DNA from: Planctomycetia bacterium
Lineage (GTDB): Bacteria; Planctomycetota; Planctomycetia; Pirellulales; JACPPG01
Length of the DNA: 64,000 nucleotides
Direction of reading: 5' to 3'
NCBI GenBank assembly: GCA_016191115.1
Contig: JACPPG010000050.1
Span: 76,390 to 140,389 of the forward strand
In this document: positions 7,846 to 56,622 of the stretch, one piece after another
Position numbering within the stretch: position 1 is the stretch's first letter
Layout of the letters: every line of letters starts with the position of its first letter
Program-made: the position numbers and the translations under genes
Notes under the pieces: model-generated
The model's database searches: none
What the model saw: the letters and a program-made list of their open reading frames with translations, nothing else
Told to the model about the DNA's origin: nothing

Positions 7846-8002
7846 CAGGGCCGTTCACAGATTCAAGCTTGCCGGCGGCGCGCCGGCGGGAAAGTGGGAC
7901 AGGCACCGAGACGAAACGTTGGTCTGAAAGGGCTTGCGCTGTTTATGCTCGGAGCCAGTCCCATTTTCCCGCCTCGCCATTTTGAAAAACAGAACGGCCG
8001 TG
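7846..8002 (+). mobile_element. 157-bp MITE, copy a
   Basis: This complete copy starts CAGGGCCGTT and ends ACGGCCGTG, with long imperfect inverted ends that would fold into one hairpin. It is flanked by the direct repeat GAGACCAACT at 7836-7845 and 8003-8012, a likely target-site duplication. It carries no transposase gene and lies upstream of the aldehyde dehydrogenase gene. Confidence 0.88.
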
Positions 8003-8128
8003 GAGACCAACTCCGCTGCCGGTGCTTGCTGGCGCCGATCGCGCCGCCCTGGCGCTGAATAAGATACACGAGCGCACCCTGTCACGCGGTTCATCGCTGC
8101 TGCCGCCGTGGAACGCTGGTCGGAATGC

Positions 8129-8285
8129 CAGGGCCGTTCACAGATTCAAGCTTGCCGGCGGCGCACCGGCGGGAAAGTGGGACAGGCACCGAGAGGCAGC
8201 GTTGGTATGAAAGGGCTTGCGCTGTTTGTGCTCGGAGCCAGTCCCATTTTCCCGCCTCGCCATTTTGAAAAACAGAATGGCCCTG
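8129..8285 (+). mobile_element. 157-bp MITE, copy b
   Basis: This second complete copy in the same orientation lies 126 bp after copy a and ends GGCCCTG. It is flanked by GTCGGAATGC at 8119-8128 and 8286-8295. Its own separate duplication shows that it inserted independently of copy a. It sits just upstream of the kinase gene at 8371 and may affect that promoter. Confidence 0.9.
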
Positions 8286-8370
8286 GTCGGAATGCGATTT
8301 GACTGGACCTGGGCCACGTCCGGGCGCTAAGATAGCGGGGCACGCCCCCCGCCTTCGATTGATCCCACGC

Positions 8371-9486
8371 ATGAGCGCCCCCATGTCCTCAACGACGTTC
8401 CTGCAGCCATCGGCCACGTTGACGCTGAGCGGCCATACGACGGCCCGCTGTCCCGACGCCCTGCTCGAAAAATACCAGAACCTAGTCGACGAGCAGCGCA
8501 TGAGCTGGACCGAGCACTTGCGGCTCTTGCGCCTGTTGGGGTCGGGCGGACAGGGCGTCGTCTACTTGAGCGAACGGCGCGGCACCGACAGCTTTACGCT
8601 GCCCGTGGCCGTGAAGATATTCTCGCCGCTGCACTACGAGGACGATCGCACGTACGACGAGGCGATGGGCCGGATCGCGGCGATCGCCGCCCGCGTGGCG
8701 CAGATCCAGCAGGACAACCTGCTCGACGTTCACAATTTCGTCGAGCGCAACCGCATCCGGCTGATGGAGATGGAATGGGTCGACGGCTACGATCTCGATC
8801 GGCTGCTGACGCACCAGATGCTGGAGCGGACGCGTCTGCGCGTCAGCAACCGCCGTTGGGACTATCTCAATAACGTCATCGTCACCGGCGGCCCCTTGCA
8901 GCCGCGGCTAAAGCCGGGCATTGCCATCGCCGTCTTGCGCGAGTGCCTGGGGGCGCTCGCGGCGCTGCACCGGCAGGGCATCGTCCACGGCGACGTCAAG
9001 CCGTCGAACATCATGCTCAAGCGGACGGGCAACGCCAAGATCATCGACATCGGTTCCGCTTTCGACATGGAAGACGCGCCAGCCCGTCGCAGTTGCACTC
9101 CGACGTACGCCGCGCCCGAAGTGCTGGAAGGGGGCGAGTCCTCACCCCGCTCGGATCTGTGCAGCCTGGGCTACGTGCTGATCGAAATGCTATCGGGCAC
9201 GCCGCCGTTTGTCGGCCAGACGACGCTGCGCGATTTGCTGGAAGCGAAACGGATGGTGATCCAGCGGTTGCACGACCGATTGCCGCGCGAAGTGGTGTGC
9301 AACGAGCTATTGATGAACATCGTCCGCAGCCTGGTGGCGCCTGACCCCACGCTGCGGTTCCCCAGCGCCGAGGCCGCCGACCTGGTGAAGGAAGGCGCCG
9401 CCAGCTTCCATCGTCAACTGGTCAAAGGGGACCTGGCCAGCGAATACGAAAACGAAATTCGCCTATGGCTGGAGGAGCTGGACTGA
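8371..9486 (+). CDS. Atypical serine/threonine protein kinase
   Basis: This 371-residue protein has a Hanks-type kinase fold: glycine loop LGSGGQGVVYLSE near residue 55, VAVKIF lysine near 80, and a catalytic loop near 206. The loop reads HGDVKPSN instead of HRDxKxxN, and the metal-binding DFG is DIG (KIIDIGSAF). The activation segment ends in YAAPEVLEGG. The catalytic Asp, Asn and Lys are kept, so activity is possible. The HGD loop marks it as a non-RD kinase that may not need activation-loop phosphorylation. There is no membrane segment or sensor domain. The ATG at 8371 is preferred to an upstream TTG in repeat sequence. Confidence 0.88.
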   Translation: MSAPMSSTTFLQPSATLTLSGHTTARCPDALLEKYQNLVDEQRMSWTEHLRLLRLLGSGGQGVVYLSERRGTDSFTLPVAVKIFSPLHYEDDRTYDEAMGRIAAIAARVAQIQQDNLLDVHNFVERNRIRLMEMEWVDGYDLDRLLTHQMLERTRLRVSNRRWDYLNNVIVTGGPLQPRLKPGIAIAVLRECLGALAALHRQGIVHGDVKPSNIMLKRTGNAKIIDIGSAFDMEDAPARRSCTPTYAAPEVLEGGESSPRSDLCSLGYVLIEMLSGTPPFVGQTTLRDLLEAKRMVIQRLHDRLPREVVCNELLMNIVRSLVAPDPTLRFPSAEAADLVKEGAASFHRQLVKGDLASEYENEIRLWLEELD

Positions 9487-9500
9487 GAAGGCAATGATCC

Positions 9501-9600
9501 ATGCGGAATGACGAATGGGCTCGATCGACGATGGGACCGAGCGCAATCGTCTTGCATTCGTCATTCATCATTCCGCATTCCGCATTCGTCATTCATCATT
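9501..9600. repeat. AATGACGAATG / CATTCGTCATT inverted repeat
   Basis: A GCGGAATGACGAATG block at the left is mirrored by repeated CATTCGTCATTCATCATT and CCGCATT units at the right. It lies between the kinase and the Gfo/Idh gene and is the same general type as 1301-1424 and 40050-40138. Confidence 0.65.
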
Positions 9601-9616
9601 TTTTCGCCGGTGCATC

Positions 9617-10921: not shown

Positions 10922-11017
10922 CGGGCGGAAGTTGGAGAGGGTGCGCTCGACGACAGCGAGCCGCCGGATTTATCCCGGCTGTCCCGATTGGCGACGGTCC
11001 AGACGCCCGTGCGCGCC

Positions 11018-11060
11018 CGGCATGGCCACGTCGGGAGGTCCTCCGTGGCCATGGCACCCA
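11018..11060. repeat. GGCATGGCCA palindromic repeat, copy 1
   Basis: CGGCATGGCCACGTCGGGAG is followed by the complementary CTCCGTGGCCATGGCACCCA. Similar units occur at 25904-25945 and 54514-54599. It lies between the Gfo/Idh gene and the lipoprotein gene. Confidence 0.75.
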
Positions 11061-11181
11061 ATTCTTCGCGCCAGCGCGGCAGCAGGACCCCGCGCAAAAA
11101 TGGTATACTAGACAGGGACGAGCAGGCGGCGACTTCTTTGCGCCCCCCGCGATTCTAAGTTCGCAAATGGAGGACTCTCCC

Positions 11182-11829: not shown

Positions 11830-11873
11830 ATGCGGCGGGGCGGCCCAACCCGACAAGCCCCGATCGTGATAAC

Positions 11874-14090: not shown

Positions 14091-14102
14091 CCGCGCGGGG
14101 TC

Positions 14103-15836: not shown

Positions 15837-15852
15837 GCCTGCGGAGTGCCCG

Positions 15853-15992
15853 CAGGGCCGTTCACAGATTCAAGCTTGCCGGCGGCGCACCGGCGGGAAA
15901 GTGGGACAGGCACCGAGACGCAACGTTGGTCTGAAAGGACTTGCGCTGTTTATGCTCGGAGCCAGTCCCATTTTCCCGCCTCGCCATTTTTG
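15853..15992 (+). mobile_element. 157-bp MITE, copy c (right end missing)
   Basis: It matches the other copies from CAGGGCC to CGCCATTTTT but lacks the last 17 or so bases. Even so, GGAGTGCCCG flanks it at 15843-15852 and 15993-16002. It sits between the stop at 15836 and the hairpin at 16031. Confidence 0.85.
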
Positions 15993-16030
15993 GGAGTGCC
16001 CGCTAAGGGCGAATTCTGCTCGATCCGCGG

Positions 16031-21816: not shown

Positions 21817-21973
21817 CAGGGTCATTCACAGATTCAAGCTTGCCGGCGGCGCACCGGCGGGAAAGTGGGACAGGCACCGAGACGCAACGTTGGTCTGAAG
21901 GGGCTTGCGCTGTTTATGCTCGGAGCCAGTCCCATTTTCCCGCCTCGCCATTTTGAAAAACAGAATGGCCCTG
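21817..21973 (+). mobile_element. 157-bp MITE, copy d
   Basis: This full-length copy has one end base changed (CAGGGTCATT). The flanks GGGGATGAACC (21806-21816) and GGGGATGACC (21974-21983) look like a target duplication with a one-base difference. It lies 64 bases before the GT9 start codon, so it may supply or separate that gene's leader. Confidence 0.87.
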
Positions 21974-33480: not shown

Positions 33481-34095
33481 CTAGACCGATCCAGTCAGCC
33501 AACAGACCAGCCCGTCGGCCTCGCGGAAGCTGCGCAGGCAGTAGCCTGCCAGCTCGGCGCCACGGGCCGCGGAGGGGTCACGGTTGGCGGTGTAGAGCAC
33601 GGTGCGGACGCCGGCGCGACGGCCCGCCTCGATATCGAAGTGAAAGTCGCCGACGACCGCGACCTCACCCGGCTCAAGCCGCCATGCCTCGCAGATTCGC
33701 CAGATTGCCGTGGGATCGGGCTTGGCCGGGGCATCCTCGCGCGTCATCACCGGATCGAACGCCAACTCCAGCCGCGCGAGCGTGCTGTGCGCGACCTCGC
33801 GGCAGTTCCGCGTCAGCACGGCCTGCCGGATGCCCAGTTCCGCAAGCCGGGCGAGAAACTCGCGCACGCCGGGCATCAGCCGCGCGCTATTGGCGCCGGC
33901 CCATTCGTGCCGGGCGAGAATCTCCCGGCACCGCGTGGCCCGCGGCTCGTCGAATCGCTCGATCGCCTCCAGAATGGGCTGCCCCGGCGGAATCCCCATC
34001 TCGCGCCGCATGGCCTCAAAATCCAAACCCGAATCGACGAGCGTCCCATCCAGATCAAAAATCACGCCACGAGTGGAGGGGGCAGAACGGGACAT
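33481..34095 (-). CDS. HAD-family phosphatase
   Basis: This 204-residue protein has the HAD motifs in order: DLDGTLVDS (nucleophile Asp), TRNCREV (motif II), the Lys in APAKPDPTAI (motif III) and VVGDFHFDIEAGRRAG (motif IV). The cap is the small helical insert after motif I, as in phosphoglycolate phosphatase-like enzymes. The substrate is not determined. The ATG at 34095 fits the family, and the next gene upstream on the same strand is the large helicase, 18 bases away. Confidence 0.9.
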   Translation of the reverse strand: MSRSAPSTRGVIFDLDGTLVDSGLDFEAMRREMGIPPGQPILEAIERFDEPRATRCREILARHEWAGANSARLMPGVREFLARLAELGIRQAVLTRNCREVAHSTLARLELAFDPVMTREDAPAKPDPTAIWRICEAWRLEPGEVAVVGDFHFDIEAGRRAGVRTVLYTANRDPSAARGAELAGYCLRSFREADGLVCWLTGSV

Positions 34096-34113
34096 TACCG
34101 ATGAAGCGGACTC

Positions 34114-38853: not shown

Positions 38854-39047
38854 GACGTGCGGGCGCGTGCCCCCTCACACAAAGTTCGCCACTGCCTCGG
38901 ACCGCCGATGGAAGAACTATAGCTTTGGAGGGCGGTCGGTTCCAGCAATGCGGCTGCAAAGCCGGATTTTTGTTGGCTGAACGAACTTTTAGAGACCGAC
39001 ATCGCAGACGCGCGATTGCGCCTACAGTGCAATGCGCGGCGCCTCGA

Positions 39048-40001
39048 TCATACACGCTTGTGGCGGAGAATGTGGATGCCGCGCCAGACGGCCAAGGCCA
39101 GCGCCGCGACGACGGCGGTTTCCAGTAGCAGTTGCCACCACGTCCAGTGCCTTAGCACGTTGGCGGCGTGCCCGGCGAGCGCGATGTGCCCCGGGCCGTA
39201 CCACAAGGGCGCTGCGCCCCGCCGCTGCGCTAGTAGCCAGTTGCGCAGGTCGTACTGCTCGAAGGCCGGCGTCCAGCAGTCGTGGCTCACGGAGTCGAAT
39301 TCCGTGAGATGCACGCGGCCGCCGGCTTGCGCTAGCGCCCTGACCGTGCGGCGGACAAACCGCGGCGGCATCCACTCGTCACGCGTCGAGTGGAAGGCCC
39401 ACACCGGCACGGAAACGAGCCGGTCGATACGCGACACGTCGCCCCCGGGCGACGCCAAGGGCGCGACGGCCGAGAACATTTCCGGGCGTCGCAGGGCCAG
39501 CTCCCAGCAGCCGTTGCCTCCGCTGGAGAGGCCGGCCAGCGACACGCGCTGGGCATCGATGACGCGCGTCCGTAGCGTCTCCTCGAGAATGGCCGCGACG
39601 ACGTTCACCATGTCGTCGGCGCGCGGCGCGCCGCCGGCGCTGCCGCCCGAGGAACCCGGCCAGTAGACCCACTCGGGATTGTCCTTCGGGCACTGCACGG
39701 CCAAGACAAAGAAGGGAAACCGCGACCGCTGCCAAGGCCGCGGAAAAACGAGCGTGTCGAGCCACGTGAGGTGGTGTAGATTGTCGTCGCCCGACTCGCC
39801 GTAGCCGTGCAGCCATACCAGCAGCGGCAGCGGCCGGGCGGCATCCGCCCCGTCGGGCACAAAAAGCCGATAGCGGAACAGGTGGTCCCGATAACCGCCC
39901 CCGGTGTAGCGGTACTCAAGCGGCGTGAAGAGCGCGACGAACTCGGCGTGCAACGCGCCCGGCTGCAAGAGCGACAACGTGAGGATGAGGGCGGGTGACA
40001 T
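39048..40001 (-). CDS. Secreted alpha/beta hydrolase with C-terminal membrane anchor
   Basis: The 317-residue protein has a short signal sequence (ALILTLSLLQPGALHA) and an alpha/beta-hydrolase domain like PHB depolymerase or feruloyl esterase. LLVWLHGYGESG forms the oxyanion region, GLSSGGNG the nucleophile, HSTRDEW the probable acid and SVSHDCW the histidine. A final helix (LLLETAVVAALALAVWRGI) should fix it in the membrane with the catalytic part outside. The ATG at 40001 gives the signal sequence. The natural substrate is unknown. Confidence 0.82.
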   Translation of the reverse strand: MSPALILTLSLLQPGALHAEFVALFTPLEYRYTGGGYRDHLFRYRLFVPDGADAARPLPLLVWLHGYGESGDDNLHHLTWLDTLVFPRPWQRSRFPFFVLAVQCPKDNPEWVYWPGSSGGSAGGAPRADDMVNVVAAILEETLRTRVIDAQRVSLAGLSSGGNGCWELALRRPEMFSAVAPLASPGGDVSRIDRLVSVPVWAFHSTRDEWMPPRFVRRTVRALAQAGGRVHLTEFDSVSHDCWTPAFEQYDLRNWLLAQRRGAAPLWYGPGHIALAGHAANVLRHWTWWQLLLETAVVAALALAVWRGIHILRHKRV

Positions 40002-40049
40002 GGGGAGCGAGTGAGCAATGGTCGGTGGTCAGTGGGCGGCAGATTCAAA

Positions 40050-40138
40050 TGATGAATGCGGAATGATGAATGCGGAATGATGAATGATGAATGAAGGGAC
40101 CGCGGAAGCGAGTCTCTTGTATTCATCATTCATCATTT
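40050..40138. repeat. AATGATGAATG / CATTCATCATT repeat
   Basis: Tandem GATGAATGCGGAATGATG units at the left are mirrored by ATTCATCATTCATCATT at the right. They lie between the pseudopilin stop and the hydrolase gene. Confidence 0.65.
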
Positions 40139-40149
40139 CTATCTCCCGC

Positions 40150-41262
40150 CTAGTTTCCCTCCCCGCGGTCGGGCGTCACGAGCGCCAGGAGCACGTTGGG
40201 ATCGGTTTGCCGCGACAGGCCGGTGACGTGCCCGTCGGCGAAGGCAAAATTGATCTCGGCCGGGTGGAAGCTGTATATCTCGCCGGCGTTGTCGCATTGC
40301 ATCAGGCACTTGCCCGCCGGCGTGTCACGGCCGCTAATGTCGGCGACGGTTTGCGGGTCGGCCCAGGCGCTTTCAAGCGGCTCGTTGCGCATGGTGCGGA
40401 CGCCGTTTTCCCAATGCTCCGGCCGGCCGGCGACCTCGGTCATGGCAATCGTGTTCGACAGGCCGTCGGTGATGTCGCTCGCCCGCAGGCGCACGCTGAA
40501 CTCCACCGTCACAGGCCCCAGGATCGCGGGCGTGACCTTGTTCACCAGCGCCTTCGATTCGACGGCGAACGGCGAGGGGAACATCCCGCGCAATCCCGCC
40601 GGATCGTCTCGCGGCACGTCGTACCCGAAAGTGCGGGCGGTGCCGTCCTCGACGCCGGTGATCACCGTGTAGTCGGTGACGGCGCCTGTGTATTTCGCCG
40701 AGTACTTGGCATCCAGCTTGCCGAGGATAGGGGCGATGATCTTGTGCTGGCGGTACGACTTCGGAAACGCCAGCGACGGCTGGTAGGCGTTCGGCTGCGG
40801 GTCGCGCGGCGGCGCGGAGGGGCACACCGTGACACCCAGGTCGGCGCCGATGGCGGCGGCGTTCGCCGGATCGCAGAACATGCCCTCGGTGTGGTAGTTG
40901 GCGGCCACCGCGGCGGCGTCGAGAAACGGCAAGAGCTCGCTCATGTAGCCGTGGAACTGCCACTGGCTGTCGCCCCCCAACGGCCCGGTGACCCGCACCG
41001 TCATGCCGGAAGGGAACGCGCCGCGTTGCGATTCGCAGTTGGCCAAGGCGAGGCCGAACTGTCGGAGGTTGTTCTGGCACTGGGTCGAGCGGGCCCGTTC
41101 GCGCGCGGCCTGAATCGCGGGGATCGAAAGCGATATCAACAGCCCGATGATGGCGATCACGATCAAGACCTCGATGAGCGTAAAGCCGGTGCGGGCGGAA
41201 GCAGGCAGGCGGCGGTAGGCAGCGGGCCGTTCGAAAGGCGGGCAGCCGGCCGTTTGCCGCAT
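40150..41262 (-). CDS. DUF1559 pseudopilin-like protein
   Basis: This 370-residue protein has a prepilin leader and methylation site ([19 protein letters not shown]), then the DUF1559 body with [16 protein letters not shown] and [18 protein letters not shown]. The end contains [17 protein letters not shown], an exact H-X9-DG motif. Such proteins are abundant in planctomycetes and are thought to be exported by a type II/IV pilus-like machine; individual roles are unknown. The ATG at 41262 is used; an ATG at 41367 is possible but would put a CCCCTCTCCCC hairpin inside the leader. It ends a six-gene unit. Confidence 0.88.
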
Positions 41263-41283
41263 GGCGTCTGTGCTGTCTGCTGC

Positions 41284-41315
41284 CAGCCCCTCTCCCCTTG
41301 CGGGAGAGGGGCTGG
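41284..41315. repeat. CAGCCCCTCTCCCC hairpin
   Basis: CAGCCCCTCTCCCC and GGGAGAGGGGCTG form a strong stem around a 4-5 base loop, just upstream of the chosen pseudopilin start. A pilin start at 41367 would translate it as [12 protein letters not shown]. It probably affects the leader of this gene. Confidence 0.6.
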
Positions 41316-41380
41316 GGGTGAGGGGGCCGCGGCCGCGCATGTTTTGTTGAAGTAGCTTCCCGTGCATCGCTATACCACCC

Positions 41381-41656
41381 CTATCGATTTTGCCACGCCT
41401 TCGCGCCGGCGAGCGCCACAATCGCCAGCCCACAAATCACGGCGTACGTCCGCCACGTCCAAGTCCGGACGTCGATCGTCGAAAGCAGGCCCCACCAGAC
41501 GCGGGGAAATAATTGAAACACAAGCGCCGCGGCGGTCGTCACCAGCAGCAGTTCCAGCCACGGAAACGGGCGAACGTCGTCTGTGTCATCCGTCGCCATA
41601 ATCCTAGTCGTCCGATCCGGCGCCGCCGCGCCTCGCCCGGCCGCGGCCCCGCTCAC
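41381..41656 (-). CDS. Small membrane protein of the MauE-like operon
   Basis: The product is 91 residues from a GTG that overlaps the preceding stop by four bases (GTGA), or 72 residues from an ATG at 41599. It has two hydrophobic helices ([19 protein letters not shown] and [19 protein letters not shown]). I know no family for it. Position between the MauE-like and pseudopilin genes suggests it is a partner of one of them. Confidence 0.6.
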
Positions 41657-42609
41657 AACTCACTCGACACGCGGACCACGGTCCCGTCGTCGACGTCGAT
41701 CACGACGGGCGTGGCGACGAACCATTCTTTGTCCGCCGACAGCAGGCCGCGCGCGAAACCCAGCGGCGCGCCGCTGTCGGCTATTAGCGTATCATCGAAC
41801 GGCGGCACCTCCACAAGCGCCACCTGCCGCGCGCGGCCAAGGTCGGCAAGCCCCTCGTCGGACTCGTAGTTCGCCAATACTTCCTGGCACTTCGGACAGT
41901 CGTGATGATACAGCAGCACGGTCCACTGCCCGACGCTCAGTTGGCTGCCGATATCCGTGTGCGTTAGCAGGGGCAACCGCTTCCCAACCCATCCGTTCGG
42001 CTCCAGCACGACCGACTTCGCATCGGCAGGAATGTCCCCCGCATCGGTCAGTCGGGCAGGAGCCAGCATGGCGATCGCCCACACGACCGTCAGGTTCAGC
42101 GAGACGGCGGCCAGGGCCGCGGGCACCATTCGCCACGCGTGGCGCTCCCGCACCACCTCCGGCGCTTCTGCCGCTGGCACAAGAGCATCGGCCAGATCGC
42201 GCCGCGGCCACCACCACCACAGGGCAAACACCGCCGCCAGATCGCCCACAAACGTCCACCAAGGGCTAACCCGCACGCCGCCGAAGCATCCGCACGACTC
42301 CGCGCCGGACAGGCCGCGATAGAGCGAAACGCACGCGAACAGCGCAAACGCGACAAGCGCCGCGCGCCACGCTCCCCTTCGCGCGAAGCCGGACAGGAGC
42401 CACAGGCCGAGCAGGGCCTCGCCCTCGACAAGCGCCGCGGCGAGCAGGCGCGAGCCGACTGGACTCGCCGCGGCCGGGGCGGACACCAGGTCGTACGCCT
42501 TCAGCCCGGCCGCCACGAGAAGCACCCCGCCCAGCGCGGCGCGCAGTGTGCGCCCCGCACCGGGGCTTATGGCGCCGGCCATGGCCCAGATCGTCTTCGT
42601 GGTTTCCAT
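41653..42609 (-). CDS. MauE-like membrane protein fused to a MauD/thioredoxin-like domain
   Basis: The 318-residue protein has an N-terminal MauE/DoxX-type four-helix domain (about 15-160). It carries the Cys motif ESCGCFGG and the helix WWTFVGDLAAVFALWWWW. A further membrane segment (ALAAVSLNLTVVWAIAML) leads into a C-terminal thioredoxin-like domain with HHDCPKCQEV. In methylamine dehydrogenase clusters, MauE and MauD are separate proteins needed to make the disulfide-rich small subunit; here both appear in one chain. The CPxC pair would face the periplasm. The gene directly upstream encodes a Cys-rich secreted protein, a natural substrate. Confidence 0.8.
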   Translation of the reverse strand: METTKTIWAMAGAISPGAGRTLRAALGGVLLVAAGLKAYDLVSAPAAASPVGSRLLAAALVEGEALLGLWLLSGFARRGAWRAALVAFALFACVSLYRGLSGAESCGCFGGVRVSPWWTFVGDLAAVFALWWWWPRRDLADALVPAAEAPEVVRERHAWRMVPAALAAVSLNLTVVWAIAMLAPARLTDAGDIPADAKSVVLEPNGWVGKRLPLLTHTDIGSQLSVGQWTVLLYHHDCPKCQEVLANYESDEGLADLGRARQVALVEVPPFDDTLIADSGAPLGFARGLLSADKEWFVATPVVIDVDDGTVVRVSSEL

Positions 42610-42669
42610 GGGGCTGTTCGTCTCTAGATGCGTGCCTTCGATTCCCGCCGCAGGGCGCCAATCGACTCA

Positions 42670-43044
42670 CTACGGAGGCTTCGGCGTGCACATGCTGTTG
42701 ACCACCGTTACGGCGAAAGCGCCTTGCGCGCAACCCTGGCCCGTTCCGGGGCACGAGTACTTGCAAGCGGGATCTCCGCATGGACAGGCATTGCACATGA
42801 TGAACGTGGTCCTGTTATTGGGCGCCGGAGCGCTTGAACGATCGTTCACGCTGGCGTTCGGATCGTTCAGGTCGGCGGTGGCGACAAACGCGTAGTGTAT
42901 GTACGAGTTTTGACTGGTGCATATGTCCGTTCCAGAGACGCAGCCGGTGGGGCATGCCGCGAAGCCGCTTGATGCCCAGTCTTCTGCGAGCAGCGCCAGG
43001 GTCGTTGCCCACACTACGATCACAAGCCTTTGCAAGATCACCAT
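42670..43044 (-). CDS. Secreted cysteine-rich small protein
   Basis: This 124-residue protein has a signal peptide (LVIVVWATTLALLAEDWASS) and ten cysteines in the mature part, clustered in ACPTGC and in CNACPCGDPACKYSCPG. Such a number and spacing suggest several disulfides. No family is recognised. The mature part has no tryptophan, so it is not a TTQ-bearing methylamine dehydrogenase subunit. The ATG at 43044 has GGGAGAA upstream. It lies 60 bases before the MauE-MauD-like gene on the same strand. Confidence 0.7.
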   Translation of the reverse strand: MVILQRLVIVVWATTLALLAEDWASSGFAACPTGCVSGTDICTSQNSYIHYAFVATADLNDPNASVNDRSSAPAPNNRTTFIMCNACPCGDPACKYSCPGTGQGCAQGAFAVTVVNSMCTPKPP

Positions 43045-43118
43045 GTCACGATTCTCCCATTGATGTTGCCGCCGATCCGCAGGATGATCAAAACTTTCAC
43101 ATGGGTGAAGGCCGCTCC

Positions 43119-44246
43119 TTACGACCGCGTTCGCTTCCTCCACACCAAGGCTATCAGGACGACCACGCACGCAACGTTCAGAACAATCAGCCACGTCCGC
43201 CCCCCCCGTGAAACGCCGTCCACAGGCGCGTCTGCGATCGTCTTGCCAGCCATCAAATCATCGTACCGAGTGATGTCCATTTCCTCCCGCGACAAGTAGC
43301 GTTTGCCGGCGTCGGTGAGCAGGTAGGTGCGGACTTCTTTGCCAACGTGTTCGTTAATCCACGAGCCGACGGGAAATGTTATCGAAAACAAACCGTCGGG
43401 AATATCGCCGTTGACGCTCGACTGTTGGACCTCGACGCGCCCCCCTTCGGTAAACCGTCGATTGTCATCCAGATTCTTCCAGCTCCATCCCGTCGGCGCG
43501 AGAGGCGGATCGCCGTCTTTCGAGTAGGTGATGACGTGCTCCGACTGGAGCCGCCCCAACCGCTCTAGGCTGAACGCCGTAGGTGCACATGCGGCGGCCG
43601 CGTCGACTTTGATACGCGCCGTCCACTCGGCACCCCGCGGGAACACGAGCGTGGCGATTCTATCGCCGTCAGCCGGAGGCTGCACGCGGACGCTTCCCTC
43701 GTCCACCTCCACAAGCAGCCGGCGCAGCAGGTCGAAGGGGCGGTAGACGAGCGAGATCGCCATCGTGTCGATGCTCACCGTGAGCGTGGTGACAGGCTCT
43801 TCATCGTGCCACTCCTCGCCATAGGGAAACTTGGTGGGACCCTTGCCAAAGAGCGTCCTGGATCCTTGCTCGTTGAATCCACACGCGTAGGCGTTCGCGC
43901 CCAGGGCGTTCGCCCCTTCATCCCAAGACTCGCCGTCGAGCTCGTAGTAAAGCTTGTCCGCCTTGCGGGCATACGTGATCGTCGATCGCAACGTCACGTC
44001 GTGCGGCGGCACGTCAGGCGAAGGAAGCCCCGTCATGACGCCGATTTGCCCTTTGGCGTACGTTCGCCACACCGTGCAAGTGAACCGATACGAGTGCACC
44101 TCGGACTCCCGCTTTCGCCATGCCGCGAGCACGTTCTCCAGCGTGACGTCGTCGGCCCACGCCGGCGCTGGACACCCCACGATGGCGACGGCAAGCAGCG
44201 CTGCAACTGCGCAGAACGTGCGCGATGAGACCACGCTGCCGGTCAT
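43119..44246 (-). CDS. Secreted membrane-anchored protein, LolA-like in outline
   Basis: The 375-residue product has a signal peptide (FCAVAALLAVAIVGCPAPAW), then a beta-rich body that starts LENVLAAWRKRESEVHSYRF. That start is similar in style to TIGR03009/LolA-like domains. A C-terminal helix (WLIVLNVACVVVLIALVWRK) probably anchors it. The family is not certain. The ATG at 44246 has AAAGGAG upstream and is two bases after the DUF1573 stop, so the genes are coupled. A role with the surface proteins of this operon is inferred. Confidence 0.7.
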   Translation of the reverse strand: MTGSVVSSRTFCAVAALLAVAIVGCPAPAWADDVTLENVLAAWRKRESEVHSYRFTCTVWRTYAKGQIGVMTGLPSPDVPPHDVTLRSTITYARKADKLYYELDGESWDEGANALGANAYACGFNEQGSRTLFGKGPTKFPYGEEWHDEEPVTTLTVSIDTMAISLVYRPFDLLRRLLVEVDEGSVRVQPPADGDRIATLVFPRGAEWTARIKVDAAAACAPTAFSLERLGRLQSEHVITYSKDGDPPLAPTGWSWKNLDDNRRFTEGGRVEVQQSSVNGDIPDGLFSITFPVGSWINEHVGKEVRTYLLTDAGKRYLSREEMDITRYDDLMAGKTIADAPVDGVSRGGRTWLIVLNVACVVVLIALVWRKRTRS

Positions 44247-44248
44247 AT

Positions 44249-45358
44249 CTACTCCTTTCCCTCGGACCCTTCGGCAAGGCCGTGCCATGCCACGGGAAGG
44301 AGGATTGTGAGCGGCGCATCGCCCGCGCTCCGAACGACCATCGTGAGCGTTTCGCTTTGGGGCCCGGTGGCGCGAACGATATGCGCAATACGCACTTCGA
44401 TGTCGTGCCCGGACCGCCTGTCCCAATCCGCCGTCAAGGCCGCGTGGTCGCGAACCGACTCGACTTGGAACGGCTCGTTCACCCGCGATCTTAGCGTCAC
44501 CGTGCCGCCAAGCGTTTCGCCCACGCGCCCGGCGCCCAGGTGCAGCTCGTGCGGGTCGGCTTCCACTTCCTCCTCGACGCGGCCAAAGAACACGATGTGC
44601 GCGGTCTCGAGCGGCGGCGAATCCGGCGGCGTGGCCAAGAGCACGATCGTGCCCTCGAAGGGGCCGGGCGGGAGCTCGCTCCGCGGAACCACCGATACCC
44701 GGTGCTCCTGGTCGGAGACGCGCTCGGTCGCGACGGCGGCGACCGACTCGTCGCACCGCGCCACAAGCGACGCGAGCGGGCAGGCACTGTGAACGGCGAT
44801 CACTTTCGCGTCGAACGGATGGCCGCGCGTCAGCTCGTCAAACCGCGCGCACGGAGGCTCGCACTTCAAAAGCTGCTTCACGTACCCGCGCAGCATCCAC
44901 GAGATTCTCGTCGATTCGTCCCCGGCGATCCGTGGCATCAATCGGACGGAAAGGCGGTGGTCGGTGGCCGGGCTGGGACCTTTGAGCAGGTCGACCGTCA
45001 CCAGCACGTCCGTCGCTTCGCCGGCCGGGATCGTTACCGATTCAGGAGCGACGGACGTGCAATTGCAGGTGGCGTCGAAGCGCGCGATGCGCACATCGCG
45101 TTCGGACGTGTTTCTTATGTGCAGCGCGTGCTCGACAGCCGTCGACGCCCACACTTCGCCAAGGAGCAGATTTTGCTCCGCGACGACAAGCGCAGCGGAC
45201 GAAACGACATGGTCGGGCGTCCGGTATGGGTCGCTGCACCCGGCAAGGAGCAACAGACCGGCGCACGTTGCCTGCAGGCCGCGCGTGCGGAAGAAGCCGG
45301 CCGGGCGGGTGTCGCACCCCCCAGGAGCCGCGCGTCGCTGTCGAGAGTTCCTACCCAT
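44249..45358 (-). CDS. DUF1573 lipoprotein
   Basis: The 369-residue protein has a lipobox (GLLLLAGCSD) and a DUF1573 region near residues 60-130, with LHIRNTSERDVRIARFDATC and NCTSVAPESVTIPAGE. This is the Ig-like domain with a CxC pair typical of the family. Further beta-rich Ig-like repeats follow. It should sit on the periplasmic or outer surface, attached by lipid. The ATG at 45358 has AAGGGAG in front. It is the first gene of the operon that continues to the pseudopilin. Confidence 0.85.
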   Translation of the reverse strand: MGRNSRQRRAAPGGCDTRPAGFFRTRGLQATCAGLLLLAGCSDPYRTPDHVVSSAALVVAEQNLLLGEVWASTAVEHALHIRNTSERDVRIARFDATCNCTSVAPESVTIPAGEATDVLVTVDLLKGPSPATDHRLSVRLMPRIAGDESTRISWMLRGYVKQLLKCEPPCARFDELTRGHPFDAKVIAVHSACPLASLVARCDESVAAVATERVSDQEHRVSVVPRSELPPGPFEGTIVLLATPPDSPPLETAHIVFFGRVEEEVEADPHELHLGAGRVGETLGGTVTLRSRVNEPFQVESVRDHAALTADWDRRSGHDIEVRIAHIVRATGPQSETLTMVVRSAGDAPLTILLPVAWHGLAEGSEGKE

Positions 45359-45526
45359 GCCCACTCCCTTGTAGCCGCCGCGACTTTCACGGTCCGGGAA
45401 GGCCGGTGCGGCGCCGCAGTCTACCGAGCGGATGGCGGCTGTCAAGCAGTCGCGCCGAGGAAAAGCGCGCGCTGCGCGCGCACTGCGAACATTCCTCTTG
45501 ACGCCTCATGCGGTGACATACATATG

Positions 45527-47623
45527 TCACTGCCCCGCGCGCGGGCGCGGTCGCCATTGGCGCGGCGCAGCCGCGCTTTCAACACACCCGCGCTGCACGT
45601 CTTCGTCCGTCAAATGGAAGATGCGCGTCGCATACGACACATCTGCCACCGCTGCGAATCGTTGAAAGCGTGACAGATCGAAATGGCGCGCCGGCACGTC
45701 GGCGAACCGGCCGCTGGGCGACAAGGGACGCAGCGCCGACCCGCGAAGATAGTTGACATCGATCGCGTACCAGCCGGGCTGCAGACCTTGGTCTTCTGTT
45801 GCGTCCTCTTTTGCATCGCCCGCCTCACTCGATCGCAGCGGCGGCAGCGCGAACGCGATGCCGGCGATTTCGGGGTTCACAAAGCCGAAATGGGCCAGAT
45901 AAAACGGCCGCGCTTCCGGGTGTGCGTCGTACCACTCCTTCAGATACAGAAGGTCCTGACCCCAGGCGATGCTGCTATCCAAGAGGTGTTCGTGGCCGTG
46001 CGCGGGGCCGCCCACCAGCTCGTTGAAGTACGACAGGCTGTGCGGATAGTAGTAGAGGCTGCTGGCGATCGACCACGCGAGGGCCGCGACGACGAGCATG
46101 GCCGGCAGCCGGCGGCCGGCAGTGGGCAGCGGACCAGCAGGCAGCGGGCGGCAGGCCGTAGGCCGTACGAGCGCGTGGAAGAGAAGCGCCGATTTGCTCG
46201 CCCAGATAAATAGAAACGGAAACATCGGCAGCACGTAGCGGAAGTGGATGCTGAAGCCGGTCTGTGAGCTGACGAGCGCGAGCAGTGCGGCCGCAGGCAG
46301 GAGCACCAACATCTCGTCGCGCCAGGAGCAATGTTGGCCGCCAGCAGATGTGGATGTAGGGTGCTCTGCGAGCACCGATTCAATCGATGGCGACTTTGCT
46401 TGCGAGAGGTCGGTGCGCGCAGCGCACCCGACAACGGCCATGCGGCGGCAGCGGGCAAGCGATATGCCGCCCGCCAAAAAGACCAAGAGCCACGTGCCCA
46501 GCGGCACCTTGATCGCCAGGCCGTAGAGATAGAAGTACCACCAGCCGCGGTCGCGCCACTCGCCGTGCAGATAGGAGCGCATGCCGCGCTCGAAATCGAC
46601 CTTTTGCGCGTCGATCCCTTGTACGTAGTTGGCCGGTAGGGGCAGGGGCAGCGAACCGAGAAAAGAGTCACCAAAACGGTTGCCGGCGACCAGTGCCCTA
46701 TCGCTTTTTGGCGCGCCCGCGAGCATGCGGCTTTGAAAGCGGTAATCGCGCAACGTGCGGCCGGAGCCTTCAAAGCCGTAACCGAGATTGATGATGTAGA
46801 CGCTGAGAACGGCGGTCACTAGCAGCATGCCCGCCTCGCGCAGCCACACTGCCCAGGAGAGGGGGACAGTCCCATTTTGCGTCGAGTACGCCGCAAAATC
46901 GGGACAGTCCCCGGCAGTTCTCGCGCTGCGCCCCTTCCGATCCGGCAAACGATACACAAGCCACAAGACGGGCCACAGTGGATAGAACACCAAGAGCGTC
47001 GTCTTCGTGAGCTCGGCAATACCGAGAACGAGGCCGGTCAGAATCGCGCGCCGCCACGTCGGCTGTTTCAGCCAATGCCAGAACGTGTAGCACGCCGCCA
47101 CCGCAAGCGCCGCGGCCGGAACGTCAGGCATGATCAAAGGCGCGTTCCCCAAAATGTTCGGGCAGAAGCACCAGAGCGCCATCGCCGCCAGGCCGGCCGC
47201 CGCGCCGTAAAGCTCGCGCGCCCACCGATAACAGATCCACGCACCCGCGAGGCTAAAAGGAATGCACGCCCAGCGGCCGAGCGTGTACAGCCAGAACGTG
47301 CGAAAGCCGTTGGCGTTGACGAAGTCGATGCCCACAGTCGTTTCGCTGCGCGTCAACGGGTCGGTGCTGTACGTGGACCATTTGACCGCCGGGCCGGCGA
47401 GCATTACCGGCAGCGCGGCCACCATCCGCGCGAGCGGTGGGTTGACGCGATACAGGTCAAAACGCCCGAATTGCCAGTGGCTGATGCCCGCCGGCAGATG
47501 GCCGACCTCGGACATGACCGGGCTGTGCCGATAGGCGCTCCAGGCAAGCAGGGCCGTGTGCACGGCGAGCAACAAGACGGCAAGGCATGCCACGCGGCCG
47601 CGGCGCCGTATGCCTCGCCCCAT
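45527..47623 (-). CDS. GT39-like membrane glycosyltransferase (ArnT/PMT type)
   Basis: This protein of about 698 residues has many membrane helices. Near its N-terminus it carries the GT39 pattern, with the catalytic-type acid in MSEVGHLPAGISHWQFGRFD and RVNPPLARMVAALPV, then MPDVPAAALAVAACYTFWHW. It would transfer a sugar from a polyprenyl-phosphate donor outside the cytoplasmic membrane. Three stretches look like repeats that were taken into the frame: about residue 240-260 (GDCPDFAAYSTQNGTVPLS), about 405-435 (RTDLSQAKSPSIESVL) and about 500 (RPLPAGPLPTAGRRLPA). The start at 47623 (ATG) is used; an upstream GTG is possible. Confidence 0.82.
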   Translation of the reverse strand: MGRGIRRRGRVACLAVLLLAVHTALLAWSAYRHSPVMSEVGHLPAGISHWQFGRFDLYRVNPPLARMVAALPVMLAGPAVKWSTYSTDPLTRSETTVGIDFVNANGFRTFWLYTLGRWACIPFSLAGAWICYRWARELYGAAAGLAAMALWCFCPNILGNAPLIMPDVPAAALAVAACYTFWHWLKQPTWRRAILTGLVLGIAELTKTTLLVFYPLWPVLWLVYRLPDRKGRSARTAGDCPDFAAYSTQNGTVPLSWAVWLREAGMLLVTAVLSVYIINLGYGFEGSGRTLRDYRFQSRMLAGAPKSDRALVAGNRFGDSFLGSLPLPLPANYVQGIDAQKVDFERGMRSYLHGEWRDRGWWYFYLYGLAIKVPLGTWLLVFLAGGISLARCRRMAVVGCAARTDLSQAKSPSIESVLAEHPTSTSAGGQHCSWRDEMLVLLPAAALLALVSSQTGFSIHFRYVLPMFPFLFIWASKSALLFHALVRPTACRPLPAGPLPTAGRRLPAMLVVAALAWSIASSLYYYPHSLSYFNELVGGPAHGHEHLLDSSIAWGQDLLYLKEWYDAHPEARPFYLAHFGFVNPEIAGIAFALPPLRSSEAGDAKEDATEDQGLQPGWYAIDVNYLRGSALRPLSPSGRFADVPARHFDLSRFQRFAAVADVSYATRIFHLTDEDVQRGCVESAAAPRQWRPRPRAGQ
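46355..46430. repeat. GGGTGC..GCACC repeat inside the GT39 gene
   Basis: TGTAGGGTGCTCTGCGAGCA with CC, and GGTGCGCGCAGCGCACCC, are two hairpins about 45 bases apart. They lie in the coding frame of the glycosyltransferase at a loop between membrane helices. Confidence 0.6.
46855..46923. repeat. GGGGACAGTCCC palindrome inside the GT39 gene
   Basis: GGGGGACAGTCCCATTTTGC and GCAAAATCGGGACAGTCCCC are inverted copies around a short centre. Outer ends AGGAGA and CAGTTCTC resemble the ends of the 13973 MITE family. The frame stays open through the whole element. Confidence 0.75.
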
Positions 47624-47753
47624 GTTGCGAATCGATTTACACACGGCAATGCCTGGCGCGCTGACAAGGCCTCACGATCGCATAGCATGAACGCGGAAGA
47701 TGCGCAGTATGCGCGTCCGCATGAACGACGGCAAACATATCCGCACCGGCGCC

Positions 47754-47953
47754 AGGAGAACTGCAAAGTCCTGGGAGAGGGGGGTCAGGCACAGGGCCAT
47801 CCTGTTTTTCAAAATGGCGAGGCGGGAAAATGGGACTGGCTCCGAGCATAAACAGCGCAAGTCCTTTCAGACCAACGTTGCGTCTCGGTGCCTGTCCCAC
47901 TTTCCCGCCGGTGCGCCGCCGGCAAGCTTGAATCTGTGAACGGCAGTTCTCCT
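47754..47953. mobile_element. Second-family MITE carrying an inserted 157-bp MITE
   Basis: The left end AGGAGAACTGCAAAGTCC and right end GCAGTTCTCCT belong to the 13973 family. Between them lies copy e of the 157-bp family, and the rest of the outer element's interior is missing. CACCGGCGC flanks the composite at 47744-47752 and 47956-47964. Confidence 0.78.
47792..47944 (-). mobile_element. 157-bp MITE, copy e (inside another element)
   Basis: It is in reverse orientation to copies a-d, starts CAGGGCCATC, and loses its last four bases at the junction with CAGTTCTCCT. It has no own target duplication. Confidence 0.82.
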
Positions 47954-47990
47954 GCCACCGGCGCGGAAGAATCTCAGGGGCGAGGGAGAG

Positions 47991-49907
47991 TTACTCGCGC
48001 GCGTCTTCCAGATACGTGTAGCCTTGCAGGCCTTCTTCGTAGAAGCGGGTCAGGCGGCCGGCTTGTTGGAAGTCGAGACGGTTTTCGCGCACCGCCATTT
48101 CCACGTCGTTGCGAAACTGTCGGATCAAATCGTTGGGGTCGAACTCGACGTAGTCGAGCACTTCCCGGACCGTGTCCCCCTTGATGACCGTCTCCAGCAC
48201 GATCTCACCGTTGTCGCCCAGACTGACGTGCACGGCGTTGGTGTCGCCAAATAGATTGTGCATGTCGCCGAGGATTTCCTGATAAGCGCCCAGGAGAAAC
48301 GCGCCCAGGAAATACGGCTCGCCATTGAACGCGTGCAAGGGCAGCGTCCGCTTCACGTCGCGGCGATCGATGAAGGAGTCGATCTTGCCGTCCGAGTCGC
48401 AGGTGATGTCGCCCAGCACCGCGTGGTGCGCCGGCCGCTCGTTCAGACGGTGGATCGGCATCACCGGGAAAAGCTGCTTGATGGCCCAACTGTCGGGCAT
48501 CGACTGGAACAGCGAGAAATTGCAGAAGTACGTCTCGCTCAGCATCGCGTCCAGGCCCAACAGGTCCTCGGGCACGAAGTCCAACTGACGCACCAGCCGC
48601 TGCATCTTGCGGCAGATGGCCCAGAACAGGTTCTCGGCCAGGCTGCGTTGATCGATCGACAGGTAGCCGCCCGTGAACAGGCTCATCGCCATATCGAGCG
48701 CCTGCTGCGCGTCGTGATAGCTCTCCAGCAGGTTGCGGGCGTTGAGGTTGTTGAGCGCGCCGTACAAGTCGACGATCGGCTGCTCGGCCTCCGGCGGGGG
48801 CTCGCTGGGCACCTCGCTTTCGCCCAGCCCGGAGACGCCCAGCACGTTGAACACAAGAGCGCTGTGGTAGGCGACGATAGCCCGGCCGCTTTCGGAGACG
48901 ATCGTGGGGTGGGGCACGCCGGCGTCGTCGCACACGCTTTGGATGTGGTAGACGACGTCGTTGGCGTATTCCTGCAGGGAGTAATTGACGCTGGACTCGA
49001 AATTGGTCTGCGAGCCGTCGTAGTCGACGCCCAATCCGCCGCCCACGTCGAGATACTCGAGCCCCGCGCCGCGCGAGTACAGCTCGGCGTAGACGCGGGC
49101 CGCTTCGTTGAGCGCCTGCTTGATGTGGCGGATGTTGGGGATCTGGCTTCCCAGGTGGAAGTGCAAGAGCTTGAAGCAGTCGTGCATGTCCTGCTGCTTG
49201 AGCTCCTCAAGCGCGCGGAGGATTTCGCTGACGGTGAGGCCGAACTTGGAGCGGAACCCGCCGGAGCTTTGCCAGCGGCCGCCGGCCTTGGCGGCCAGCT
49301 TGACGCGCATGCCGATTTGGGGGCGCACGCCCACTTTGCGCGCGTACTCGAGGATCAGGCCCAGCTCGGTGTACTTCTCGACGACGGGGATCACCTGGCG
49401 GCCGATCTTCTGCGCCATCATCGCCATCTCGATGAACTCGGCGTCCTTGAACCCGTTGCAAATGATGGGCGTCTCATTGGACGCAAGCGCCACGACGGCC
49501 AGCAACTCCGGCTTCGAGCCGGCCTCGAGCCCGAAATGGAACGGCTTCCCGAAGTTCAGCACCTCTTCGACCACCTGCCGCTGCTGATTGACCTTGATCG
49601 GGTAGACGCAGAAATAGTTGCCGCGAAACTGATGGTCCTTCATCGCCTGGGAGAAGGCGGAATGGATCTCGCTCAGCCGGTGCTTGAGCACGTCGGCAAA
49701 GCGGACCAGGATCGGCAGGTCGATGCCGCGGAGCTGCAACGAGTCGATCAATTCCTTCAGGTCGATCGACCGCTGCGGGTCCTTGGTCGGATGGGCGTGA
49801 AGGTGCCCCGACTCGTCGATCGAGAAGTACCCTGCTCCCCAGCGTCCCACTTCGTACAGATCAGCGGCGTCGGACACCGACCAAGGCTTCACCTGCTGGT
49901 CGAGCAT
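47991..49907 (-). CDS. speA: Biosynthetic arginine decarboxylase
   Basis: The 638-residue PLP enzyme turns arginine into agmatine and CO2, the first step of the agmatine route to putrescine and spermidine. Markers are the PLP lysine in CVYPIKVNQQ near residue 100, the HFHLGSQIPNI block, EYLDVGGGLGVDYDGS in the phosphate-binding part and CDSDGKID near the C-terminus. Length and end-to-end order match SpeA. The ATG at 49907 has GGAGA upstream. No other polyamine gene is visible in the window. Confidence 0.95.
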   Translation of the reverse strand: MLDQQVKPWSVSDAADLYEVGRWGAGYFSIDESGHLHAHPTKDPQRSIDLKELIDSLQLRGIDLPILVRFADVLKHRLSEIHSAFSQAMKDHQFRGNYFCVYPIKVNQQRQVVEEVLNFGKPFHFGLEAGSKPELLAVVALASNETPIICNGFKDAEFIEMAMMAQKIGRQVIPVVEKYTELGLILEYARKVGVRPQIGMRVKLAAKAGGRWQSSGGFRSKFGLTVSEILRALEELKQQDMHDCFKLLHFHLGSQIPNIRHIKQALNEAARVYAELYSRGAGLEYLDVGGGLGVDYDGSQTNFESSVNYSLQEYANDVVYHIQSVCDDAGVPHPTIVSESGRAIVAYHSALVFNVLGVSGLGESEVPSEPPPEAEQPIVDLYGALNNLNARNLLESYHDAQQALDMAMSLFTGGYLSIDQRSLAENLFWAICRKMQRLVRQLDFVPEDLLGLDAMLSETYFCNFSLFQSMPDSWAIKQLFPVMPIHRLNERPAHHAVLGDITCDSDGKIDSFIDRRDVKRTLPLHAFNGEPYFLGAFLLGAYQEILGDMHNLFGDTNAVHVSLGDNGEIVLETVIKGDTVREVLDYVEFDPNDLIRQFRNDVEMAVRENRLDFQQAGRLTRFYEEGLQGYTYLEDARE

Positions 49908-51269: not shown

Positions 51270-51426
51270 CAGGGCCATTCTGTTTTTCAAAATGGCGAGG
51301 CGGGAAAATAGGACTGGCTCCGAGCATAAACAGCGCAAGTCCTTTCAGGCCAACGTTGCGTCTTGGTGCCTGTCCCACTTTCCCGCCGGTGCGCCGCCGG
51401 CAAGCTTGAATCTGTGAACGGCCCTG
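51270..51426 (-). mobile_element. 157-bp MITE, copy f
   Basis: This full-length reverse copy starts CAGGGCCATT and ends GGCCCTG. It is flanked by the exact duplication GAGCGTTGGC at 51260-51269 and 51427-51436. The rest of the gap 51054-51471 holds no gene that I can support. Confidence 0.9.
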
Positions 51427-52038: not shown

Positions 52039-52080
52039 CTCGCGGGGGCCGCCGCGCCGACAACGAACGGTTTGGCTTAG

Positions 52081-52428: not shown

Positions 52429-52447
52429 ACGACGACGACGGCCCAGC

Positions 52448-54463: not shown

Positions 54464-54513
54464 GTTTACGATTCCTTGCGATACCCGCCGGTGCGGCGAA
54501 GGTTTTCAGCGCG

Positions 54514-54599
54514 GGTGCCATGCCCACGCTCGCGTGGGCATGCGGATTCGTGGCCCGGCATGGCCAGGTCGGAGTACCTCCGCGGCCATGGCACCCAGG
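54514..54599. repeat. GGCATGGCCA palindromic repeat, copy 3 (double hairpin)
   Basis: A small hairpin GTGCCATGCCCACGCTCGCG plus TGGGCATG is followed by the family unit CCGGCATGGCCAGGTCGGAG and CTCCGCGGCCATGGCACCCA. It lies upstream of the molybdopterin gene. Confidence 0.75.
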
Positions 54600-54711
54600 T
54601 TGTAGGTGCAAATCAATGTAGCCTGCGGCCGATGGCGAGAGAACACGATCCCGTCGCCCCGCGGCGAGGGTAAGAGCGATTCGCCGCACGGAAGGTTCGC
54701 GGGCCAGAACC

Positions 54712-55071
54712 TCACAGCCGCTGCAATTGCTCGACGGTTCGATCGCCACCGGCGCTGCCGGTATTGACGGTCGTGGCCGGCTCGAAGACGAGCACCTCGA
54801 CTTCCTCGTTCGCCACCGGCCGGTGCTCGACGCCATGGGGCACGATCAGGAACTCGCCGGCGGAGAGTTCGACGACCCGGTCGCCAAACTCCATGCGGAA
54901 CGAGCCCCGCACGACCAGGAACAGCTCATCCTCCGCCTCGTGATGATGCCACAGGAACGGGCCCAGGAACTTGACCAGCTTTACTTGTTGCCCGTTCAAT
55001 TCGCCGACAATCTTCGGGCTCCAATGATCGGCGAACAGGGCAAACTTCTCGGCGAGGTTTATTTTGTCCAT
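54712..55071 (-). CDS. Cupin-domain protein
   Basis: This 119-residue protein is a single cupin barrel. The metal ligands are in FLWHHHEAEDELFLVVRG (two His and Glu) and IVPHGVEHRP (His). Such small cupins bind a divalent metal and act as isomerases, dioxygenases or sensors; the role here is unknown. The ATG at 55071 is the natural start. It shares a strand with DUF3634 upstream. Confidence 0.9.
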   Translation of the reverse strand: MDKINLAEKFALFADHWSPKIVGELNGQQVKLVKFLGPFLWHHHEAEDELFLVVRGSFRMEFGDRVVELSAGEFLIVPHGVEHRPVANEEVEVLVFEPATTVNTGSAGGDRTVEQLQRL

Positions 55072-55101
55072 TGTTTCCTCTCTCTGAGGCGACGTGATCC
55101 C

Positions 55102-55431
55102 TCACCCGCGGCGCGGACCAGCGGTCCATCCCGATTCGGCCCACCAATTTCGCAACTGCTGCCGGCCCGGTTCCGGGACCTGGCGGGAAAACTTGAGGTT
55201 GATGCGCCCGCCGTGCGTCACGCCGGACACTGCGCCCGTCGTAAGGTTGTGCCCGACAGCCACTTCGCGGACGCGGTGCAGGAAGGCCGAGGTCACCTTT
55301 CCCGCAACGGTGCGCGGCTCACCATTGACGATGCGGACGACAAAGACGCGTCGCCCTCGGCTGGACCGCCACAATCCCCAGGCGATTACGCCGGCGACTA
55401 GAAGCACGAGAAACCTAGTGAACGGCTCCAT
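55102..55431 (-). CDS. DUF3634 membrane protein
   Basis: The 109-residue protein has one N-terminal membrane helix (FLVLLVAGVIAWGLW) and a short domain that matches DUF3634 (VFVVRIVNGEPRTVAGKVTS, then GGRINLKFSRQVPEPGRQQL). The function of the family is unknown. It is 30 bases before the cupin gene on the same strand and may share its transcript. Confidence 0.8.
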   Translation of the reverse strand: MEPFTRFLVLLVAGVIAWGLWRSSRGRRVFVVRIVNGEPRTVAGKVTSAFLHRVREVAVGHNLTTGAVSGVTHGGRINLKFSRQVPEPGRQQLRNWWAESGWTAGPRRG

Positions 55432-55729
55432 CGGATCGCATCATTGACAAACGACCGAAATAAGTGAGCGCCCGACGTGTCATCTCGACTATAGCCCACC
55501 GCTTCGCATGATTCTGGCAGCCGCGCAATGCATCGTCAATTTGCCTGCGTCCCAAAGAAATGGGCAACGGCGGCGAACCAGTCTACGGCTCGACAGCGGC
55601 AAGTCCCTCGACGACAATCCCGAGAGCGCCGTCGGGGCGCGCGGAACATCGGCACGGACAGCCCGCGACGGGCATCGGTTCGCGGCGGGGCTTCGGCGTG
55701 CCGCCGGGCTGAAATCGGAACAGAAGCGC

Positions 55730-56605
55730 ATGCAACGCCTGCTGGCGGCCATCGGCGGACCGATCTTCGCCAAGGAACTCATCGAGACCGCGCGCCGCAA
55801 GCGGTACTTCGTCAACCGCGTCCTCTATGCGGTCACCCTCTTGGTCGTGCTGACGATGGTCTGGAGCGAGGCCAGCTACCTGCGCGGGCCGAATTCGATC
55901 CACCTCACCGCCCGGTTCGCTCGCGAGGTCTTTATCGCCTTGAACATCGTGCAATACGCGGCGGTGTGGTTTTTTGTGCCCGTGTTCGCTTGCGGGCTGG
56001 TGGCCGCGGAGCGCGAGGCGCAGACGCTCGATCTGGTGCTCACCGCGCGATTGAGTGACCGCGAGATCGTGCTTGGCAAGCTGGCCAGCCGTCTGGCGAT
56101 CGTCGCGCAGATCCTGCTTTCGACCCTGCCCGTGATCTGCCTGGTGGGCATGTTCGGCGGCATCGAGGTGCGCAGCGTATCGCGTGCGCTCGCGTCGACG
56201 GTGCTGGCAATGCTGTTTGCCGGCGCATTCTCGATCTACTTCTCGTCCACCAGCCGCAGCCCGGTCGCGGCGCTCGTGCGGACGTACTGGTGGCTGGCGG
56301 TGTGGCTGATCGGCCTGTTCGCGGTCGCCGGAGTCATCGTCGGGGTGTTCAACATCCAACCGCGCAACCCGGCGGCGATCATCATCTGCGGTCAAGCCTA
56401 CATGAATCCGGTGGCGACCTTCATCGCCGGCATCGAGCCCGATCTGGATCGCGAGCTGACGCGCAACTTTGGCGGCTGGTATTCAAGCTTGCCGGCGGCG
56501 CACCGGCGGGAAAGGGGGACAGGCACCGAGACGCAACGTTGGTCTGAAAGGGCTTGCGCTGTTTATGCTCGGAGCCAGTCCCATTTTCCCGCCGCGCCAT
56601 TTTGA
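55730..56605 (+). pseudogene. ABC-2-type permease truncated by a MITE
   Basis: The first 250 residues are a typical ABC-2 membrane protein: IGGPIFAKELIETARRKRYF, then several helices such as VVWFFVPVFACGLVAAERE-like segments and LIGLFAVAGVIVGVFNI. At 56481 the sequence passes into the 157-bp MITE in mid-gene and a tail (YSSLPAAHRRERGTGTETQR and so on) is encoded by the element until a stop at 56605. The C-terminal half of the permease does not resume after the element. No ATPase gene is nearby. The product may be made but is probably inactive. Confidence 0.82.
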
Positions 56606-56622
56606 AAAACAGAGTAGCCCTG
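56481..56622 (+). mobile_element. 157-bp MITE, copy g (left end missing), in ABC permease gene
   Basis: It lacks the first 15 bases and has no target duplication, so a deletion probably removed its left end together with the rest of the permease gene. It ends GTAGCCCTG. Confidence 0.85.

Follow-up and report, generated by a model that had tools for sequence, protein, structure and literature searches.

A 64-kb stretch of the genome of an uncultured planctomycete of the order Pirellulales (C89:76390-140389, contig JACPPG010000050.1; hereafter the window) carries seven copies of a 157-bp sequence which is a genuine miniature inverted-repeat transposable element (MITE), once very active, that has undergone a large burst in one species. 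The evidence for assigning it to this known kind of element is strong, and the identity proposed in an initial annotation of the window is supported by copies throughout the source genome, by target site duplications and by empty sites within the same genome. It represents a high-copy MITE from an order of uncultured planctomycetes and is probably linked to the ISAs1 family.

The 157-bp element and its copies in the source genome

The seven copies were all recovered in the window (Table 1), and copies a, b, d and f are each exactly 157 bp long, as annotated. The element ends in CAGGGCCGTTCACAGATTCAAG and CAGGGCCATTCTGTTTTTCAAA, and a long imperfect palindrome fills the space between them. As had also been proposed, the whole element folds as a single hairpin (-44.5 kcal/mol and z -5.8 as DNA, with 0 of 200 shuffled sequences as good; z -8.2 when folded as RNA). 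The annotated ends are CAGGGCC and GGCCCTG, but the right end of copy a reads GGCCGTG. Direct repeats of 10 bp were confirmed at copies a, b, c and f, and a near match at d, both duplications being retained at copy c despite its shortened right end. An Rfam scan of the window at gathering cut-offs yielded no matches.

The source genome (G000) consists of 6,026,176 bases in 93 contigs and is 94% complete. It yielded 344 matches to the left-end pattern with up to three mismatches and 345 to the right-end pattern with up to two, while the reversed control gave none in either case. In a sample of seven contigs totalling 1,190,606 bases, a fifth of the genome and including the window, which were selected because loci examined before had given their lengths, BLAST produced 94 hits which, after merging of overlaps, represent 89 distinct copies: 54 full, 30 shortened at one end, two shortened at both ends and three at contig edges. 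The full copies yield a 157-bp consensus with terminal inverted repeats that agree at 16 of the 24 outer bases, and the median identity to this consensus is 96.8%. By extrapolation, there are about 450 copies genome-wide, occupying about 1.2% of the genome. For ERIC, 711 copies in one genome are given in a review of prokaryotic MITEs (PMC10969869), and the present copy number is therefore high but no record.

Duplications of the target site were found at most of the full copies in the sample. With the ends fixed at CAG and CTG, 26 of the 54 full copies are flanked by exact 10-bp repeats, eight by repeats matching at 9/10 bases and four by exact 11-bp repeats; a flanking match of at least 9/10 occurs at 34 of the 54, as against 4 of 20,000 random positions, as expected of a target site duplication of constant length. 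When the ends were allowed to shift by up to two bases, 47 of the 54 copies showed a repeat of 9-14 bases with up to two mismatches, a count that overextends some of the repeats.

Direct evidence of insertion is provided by the copy at C17:38975, which interrupts an inverted repeat some 106 bp long. In the same genome, three sister repeats (C47:62264, C47:106814 and C5:27352) are empty, and CCCCTTGCGG, which occurs once in the empty sisters, is found on both sides of the insert as an exact duplication. The longest open frames over 38 of the dispersed MITE sites had a median length of 341 codons, compared with 506 at 2000 random sites, although this comparison, made without gene calling, is a rough proxy for insertion bias.

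Other prokaryotic MITEs, including ERIC, Correia, MITEAba12 and QMITE2, are likewise short, gene-less and present in many copies with inverted ends, but their ends and interiors are, as far as compared, unrelated to those of the Pirellulales element. QMITE2 also involves a repetitive extragenic palindrome (REP), according to PMC10969869, a review in which the words ISAs1 and Planctomyc do not occur. The portions of the literature searched contained no pairing of MITE, ISAs1 and planctomycetes, which is not proof of absence.

Shortened copies

About a third of the copies lack some 4-28 bases at one end. Among the sample copies, 12 of the 13 shortened on the right stop at positions 135-143 and 14 of the 17 shortened on the left start at 5-21, while 137, 137 and 141 bases remain in the three copies at contig edges. 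Moreover, three contigs (L141, L145 and L153) of a metagenome-assembled genome (MAG) whose contig names carry k99 break off 98-100 bases inside the MITE of that genome, as k-mer graphs predict. Because most of the shortened lengths lie near those at contig edges, and in view of the k99 contig ends, we read the one-sided shortening mainly as an effect of k-mer assembly, where a k near 141 would yield the observed lengths. Repeats of this kind leave traces in k-mer assemblies, of which the element is an example.

It is rather unlikely, but deserves consideration, that the shortened copies are biological scars, produced by deletions starting inside one end after failed transposition. In favour are the number and positions of the shortened copies given above, and the left-shortened set, with 4-43 bases lost, is broader than a pure k-mer effect predicts, which shifts the odds slightly. 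A further case is copy g, at which the frame of an ABC-2 type permease ends; the congener G002 has a frame of 670 amino acids, and the remaining part known from it was not found in the source assembly by a search that had no positive control. Either a deletion or a join may account for this. Set against biological scars are the lengths kept at contig edges and the k99 contig ends, both of which favour assembly as the principal cause.

Candidate source of the ends and transposase

Insertion sequences of the ISAs1 family have ends starting with CAGGG and generate duplications of 8-10 bp. The MITE conforms in its CAGGGCC ends and 10-bp duplications, and ISAs1 elements of the order are alike. Judged from sequence comparison, it probably derives from an insertion sequence of the ISAs1 family and, at 157 bp, contains no genes. 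An ISAs1-type transposase would act in trans, binding and cutting the two ends, and insertion would duplicate 10 bp of target.

ISAs1 matches were obtained in 36 of 97 relatives, several of which carry elements with ends like CAGGGCGATTGCGCC and exact 10-bp duplications. One MITE-type end, in genome G067, turned out to form the 3' boundary of a remnant ISAs1 element, and a search with the C-terminus of this remnant gave matches in 92 of 396 genomes of the order and revealed a subgroup sharing a long C-terminal match with it. Full-length elements of the subgroup occur in G360 (1248-1249 bp, ends CAGGGCAACTCAGTTTTTGAATC and CAGGGCAACTCAGTGTTTGATTT) and in G106 (1246 bp, ends CAGGGCGATTCAAAGTTTCATG and CAGGACTACGCAAAGAATGAAC). 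Exact 10-bp duplications flank two of seven loci in G360, with 9/10 at one more and none at four, and four of seven in G106, with 9/10 at one more and none at two. Of 22 terminal bases, 17 agree between the right end of the MITE and G360, and 17 between its left end and G106; for eight ISAs1 elements from outside the subgroup the count never exceeds 12. The chance of 11/16 matches inside CAGGGC is p ~3e-4 per comparison, a value not corrected for the two dozen ends that were compared. Four subgroup proteins scored 94-149 bits on the NCBIfam ISAs1 model NF033564 (cut-off 70, all passing), and in Pfam they match DDE_Tnp_1_assoc and DDE_Tnp_1. The MITE shares CAGGGC-type ends and duplication length with this subgroup and matches it at 17 of 22 terminal bases, but at 157 bp it has no transposase coding, and its own partner was not found.

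Several results weigh against this reading. The end match falls short of identity, and no identical ISAs1 ends were found; seven of the 54 full copies lack a duplication even at shifted ends; no alignment to 22 congener stretches spans any MITE site; and a full-length insertion sequence with the MITE ends, sought as the initial annotation had advised, was not found intact in the 94%-complete source assembly, where the ISAs1 matches are limited to two fragments belonging to other elements. An autonomous partner in the same genome is not required of a MITE. The window itself, described initially as free of transposases, contains no match to ISAs1, DDE_Tnp_1 or Y1_Tnp, other transposase families not having been scanned there. 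The proposal that a transposase encoded elsewhere moved the copies is in keeping with the ISAs1 elements with similar ends in the order, but no intact partner was found in the assembly. For this reason movement in trans is something that we infer: an ISAs1-type transposase may have moved the MITE, its partner having since been lost or lying in unassembled sequence.

The IS4-like enzyme suggested initially is not supported. Some IS4 subgroups generate duplications of fitting length, but PF01609 (DDE_Tnp_1) has no match in G000, where the search did not extend to other DDE families. Within the order, the elements found with matching ends belong to ISAs1, and none of their four proteins exceeds 28 bits with the IS4 model, whose cut-off is 115. 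Movement by an IS4-family or other DDE transposase making duplications of about 10 bp is improbable, and the ISAs1 family is the better-supported candidate. DDE_Tnp_1 loci were also considered as bearers of the MITE ends, and the 30 loci checked showed only other CAGGGC ends. If the derivation from ISAs1 is correct, the partner element should be about 1.25 kb long with ends CAGGGCCGTTCACAGATTC and CAGGGCCATTCTGTTTTTC, and the end sequences and the candidate transposase subgroup are now available for a direct test.

The transposase of the subgroup lies in two overlapping frames in +1 relation (L344 and L354, Table 1; also L314, L316, L318 and L323). A TTT(T)CCCCCC run precedes the HWGIEN motif by 267-271 nucleotides in five genomes (G360, G033, G350, G106 and G046), and is absent from G215, G203 and the single-frame ISAs1 elements examined; it possibly directs a programmed frameshift or slippage. 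PMC3281130 describes ISAs1 members in Paracoccus and elements with two open reading frames of the IS3 and IS5 groups. Another terminal repeat, CAGGAGAACTGCAAAGTC, is carried by a 1245-bp element beside DDE_Tnp_1 matches (L136 (G181:C139), L093 and L043), and single copies of it lie near MITEs in the source genome and in G015.

Interiors, related elements and the surroundings of the copies

When a full copy was used as query against 97 genomes, matches were confined to the source genome, G024 (five, partial) and G015 (one). The G015 match is another MITE that shares the end, and there was no match in four congeners. The end pattern is present in 9 of 396 genomes of the order, including the source, and had no matches in viral_contigs. 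A shorter pattern, with three mismatches, was found in 42 of 397 genomes of the class, at least seven of which also give one reversed-control match, such that single matches mean little; it was clear in G015 (106), G110 (35), G203 (15), G257 (12) and G102 (9). In other Pirellulales, MITEs with these ends enclose different interiors. Twenty-nine end-pattern loci were examined, of which 23 are non-source, and exact 10-11-bp duplications flank seven of these 23. Twenty-six named loci of another search come from two Pirellulales MAGs, taken as G015 and G201 from match positions. By eye, there are at least five unrelated interiors in different genomes, one of them also REP-like without ends, and an almost empty form at L155, of about 67 bp with a 9/10 duplication.

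REPs and bacterial interspersed mosaic elements (BIMEs) make no target duplication and are spread by REP-associated tyrosine transposases (RAYTs, of the Y1 type). The palindromic interior of the MITE resembles a REP pair, and a similar core palindrome stands without MITE ends at the four G024 loci viewed. In the source sample, 176 loose core matches lie inside MITEs and five outside, two of the latter forming the arms of a single clear hairpin that stands alone and three looking like chance. There are three Y1_Tnp matches in the source genome, and inverted GGGACAGG motifs stand on either side of one of the genes. The interior may have originated as a REP, but it is very improbable that a RAYT spread the whole element as a REP/BIME-type palindrome with incidental ends, given that the defined CAG/CTG ends are conserved across genomes where interiors differ, and that the 10-bp duplications and the one exact insertion contradict such spread.

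The broader notion that all interiors are free-standing REPs was also weakened: in 255 non-source loci, many of them fetched by the ends so that the count is biased, four cargo palindromes adjoined a MITE end in 52 cases and lacked one in two, the corresponding counts for a fifth palindrome being 0 and 4. Tentatively, and with the odds somewhat against it, one ISAs1-type end set may carry interchangeable palindromes among the Pirellulales, with the two-frame subgroup, whose conserved T3-4C6 site suggests programmed slippage, as the source of the transposase. If so, a DDE transposase would spread REP-type hairpins without a RAYT.

Table 1. Locations of the MITE copies and other features (window coordinates unless a contig or locus is given)
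Feature	Location	Strand	Remarks
MITE copy a	7846-8002	+	full 157 bp; exact 10-bp repeats GAGACCAACT at 7836-7845 and 8003-8012
MITE copy b	8129-8285	+	full 157 bp; exact 10-bp repeats GTCGGAATGC at 8119-8128 and 8286-8295
MITE copy c	15853-15990	+	right end shortened; GGAGTGCCCG at 15843-15852 and about 15993-16002
MITE copy d	21817-21973	+	full 157 bp; imperfect 10-bp repeats, 9/10 with one end shifted 1 base, 6/10 at fixed ends
MITE copy e	47792-47944	-	outermost 4 bases of left end changed; no target duplication seen
MITE copy f	51270-51426	-	full 157 bp; exact 10-bp repeats GCCAACGCTC (element strand)
MITE copy g	56481-56622	+	left 15 bases missing; no target duplication seen
ABC-2 type permease frame	55508-56605	+	ends in copy g
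Extra or moved stretch, ~11 kb	4951-16170
Extra or moved stretch, ~14 kb	34071-47995
Helicase/nuclease	34114-38853	-	1579 amino acids
ATTCATCATTCCGC-type simple repeats	9555-9601 and 40047-40093		inverted pair
~106-bp repeat family (G000)	C47:62263-62372, C47:106816-106922, C5:27350-27455, C17 around 38975		CTAAGGATCGACCGAAAAATAACTTC ends
Two-frame ISAs1 transposases	L344:2200-3361, L354:2329-3562

The repeats of about 106 bp, one of which hosts an inserted MITE copy, constitute a second small inverted-repeat family of the source genome. Within the window, the segments flanking two stretches are adjacent in three congeners (G001, G002 and G004), and about 11 kb and 14 kb are therefore extra or relocated in the source lineage; copies c and e lie near the respective right borders of these stretches. 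Inside the 14-kb stretch is a gene for a helicase/nuclease with DUF4011, AAA_11/12, MTES_1575 nuclease and DUF3320 domains, which strongly matches the candidate defence model PDC-S37 (1845 bits). The two simple repeats listed in Table 1 are 89% complementary.

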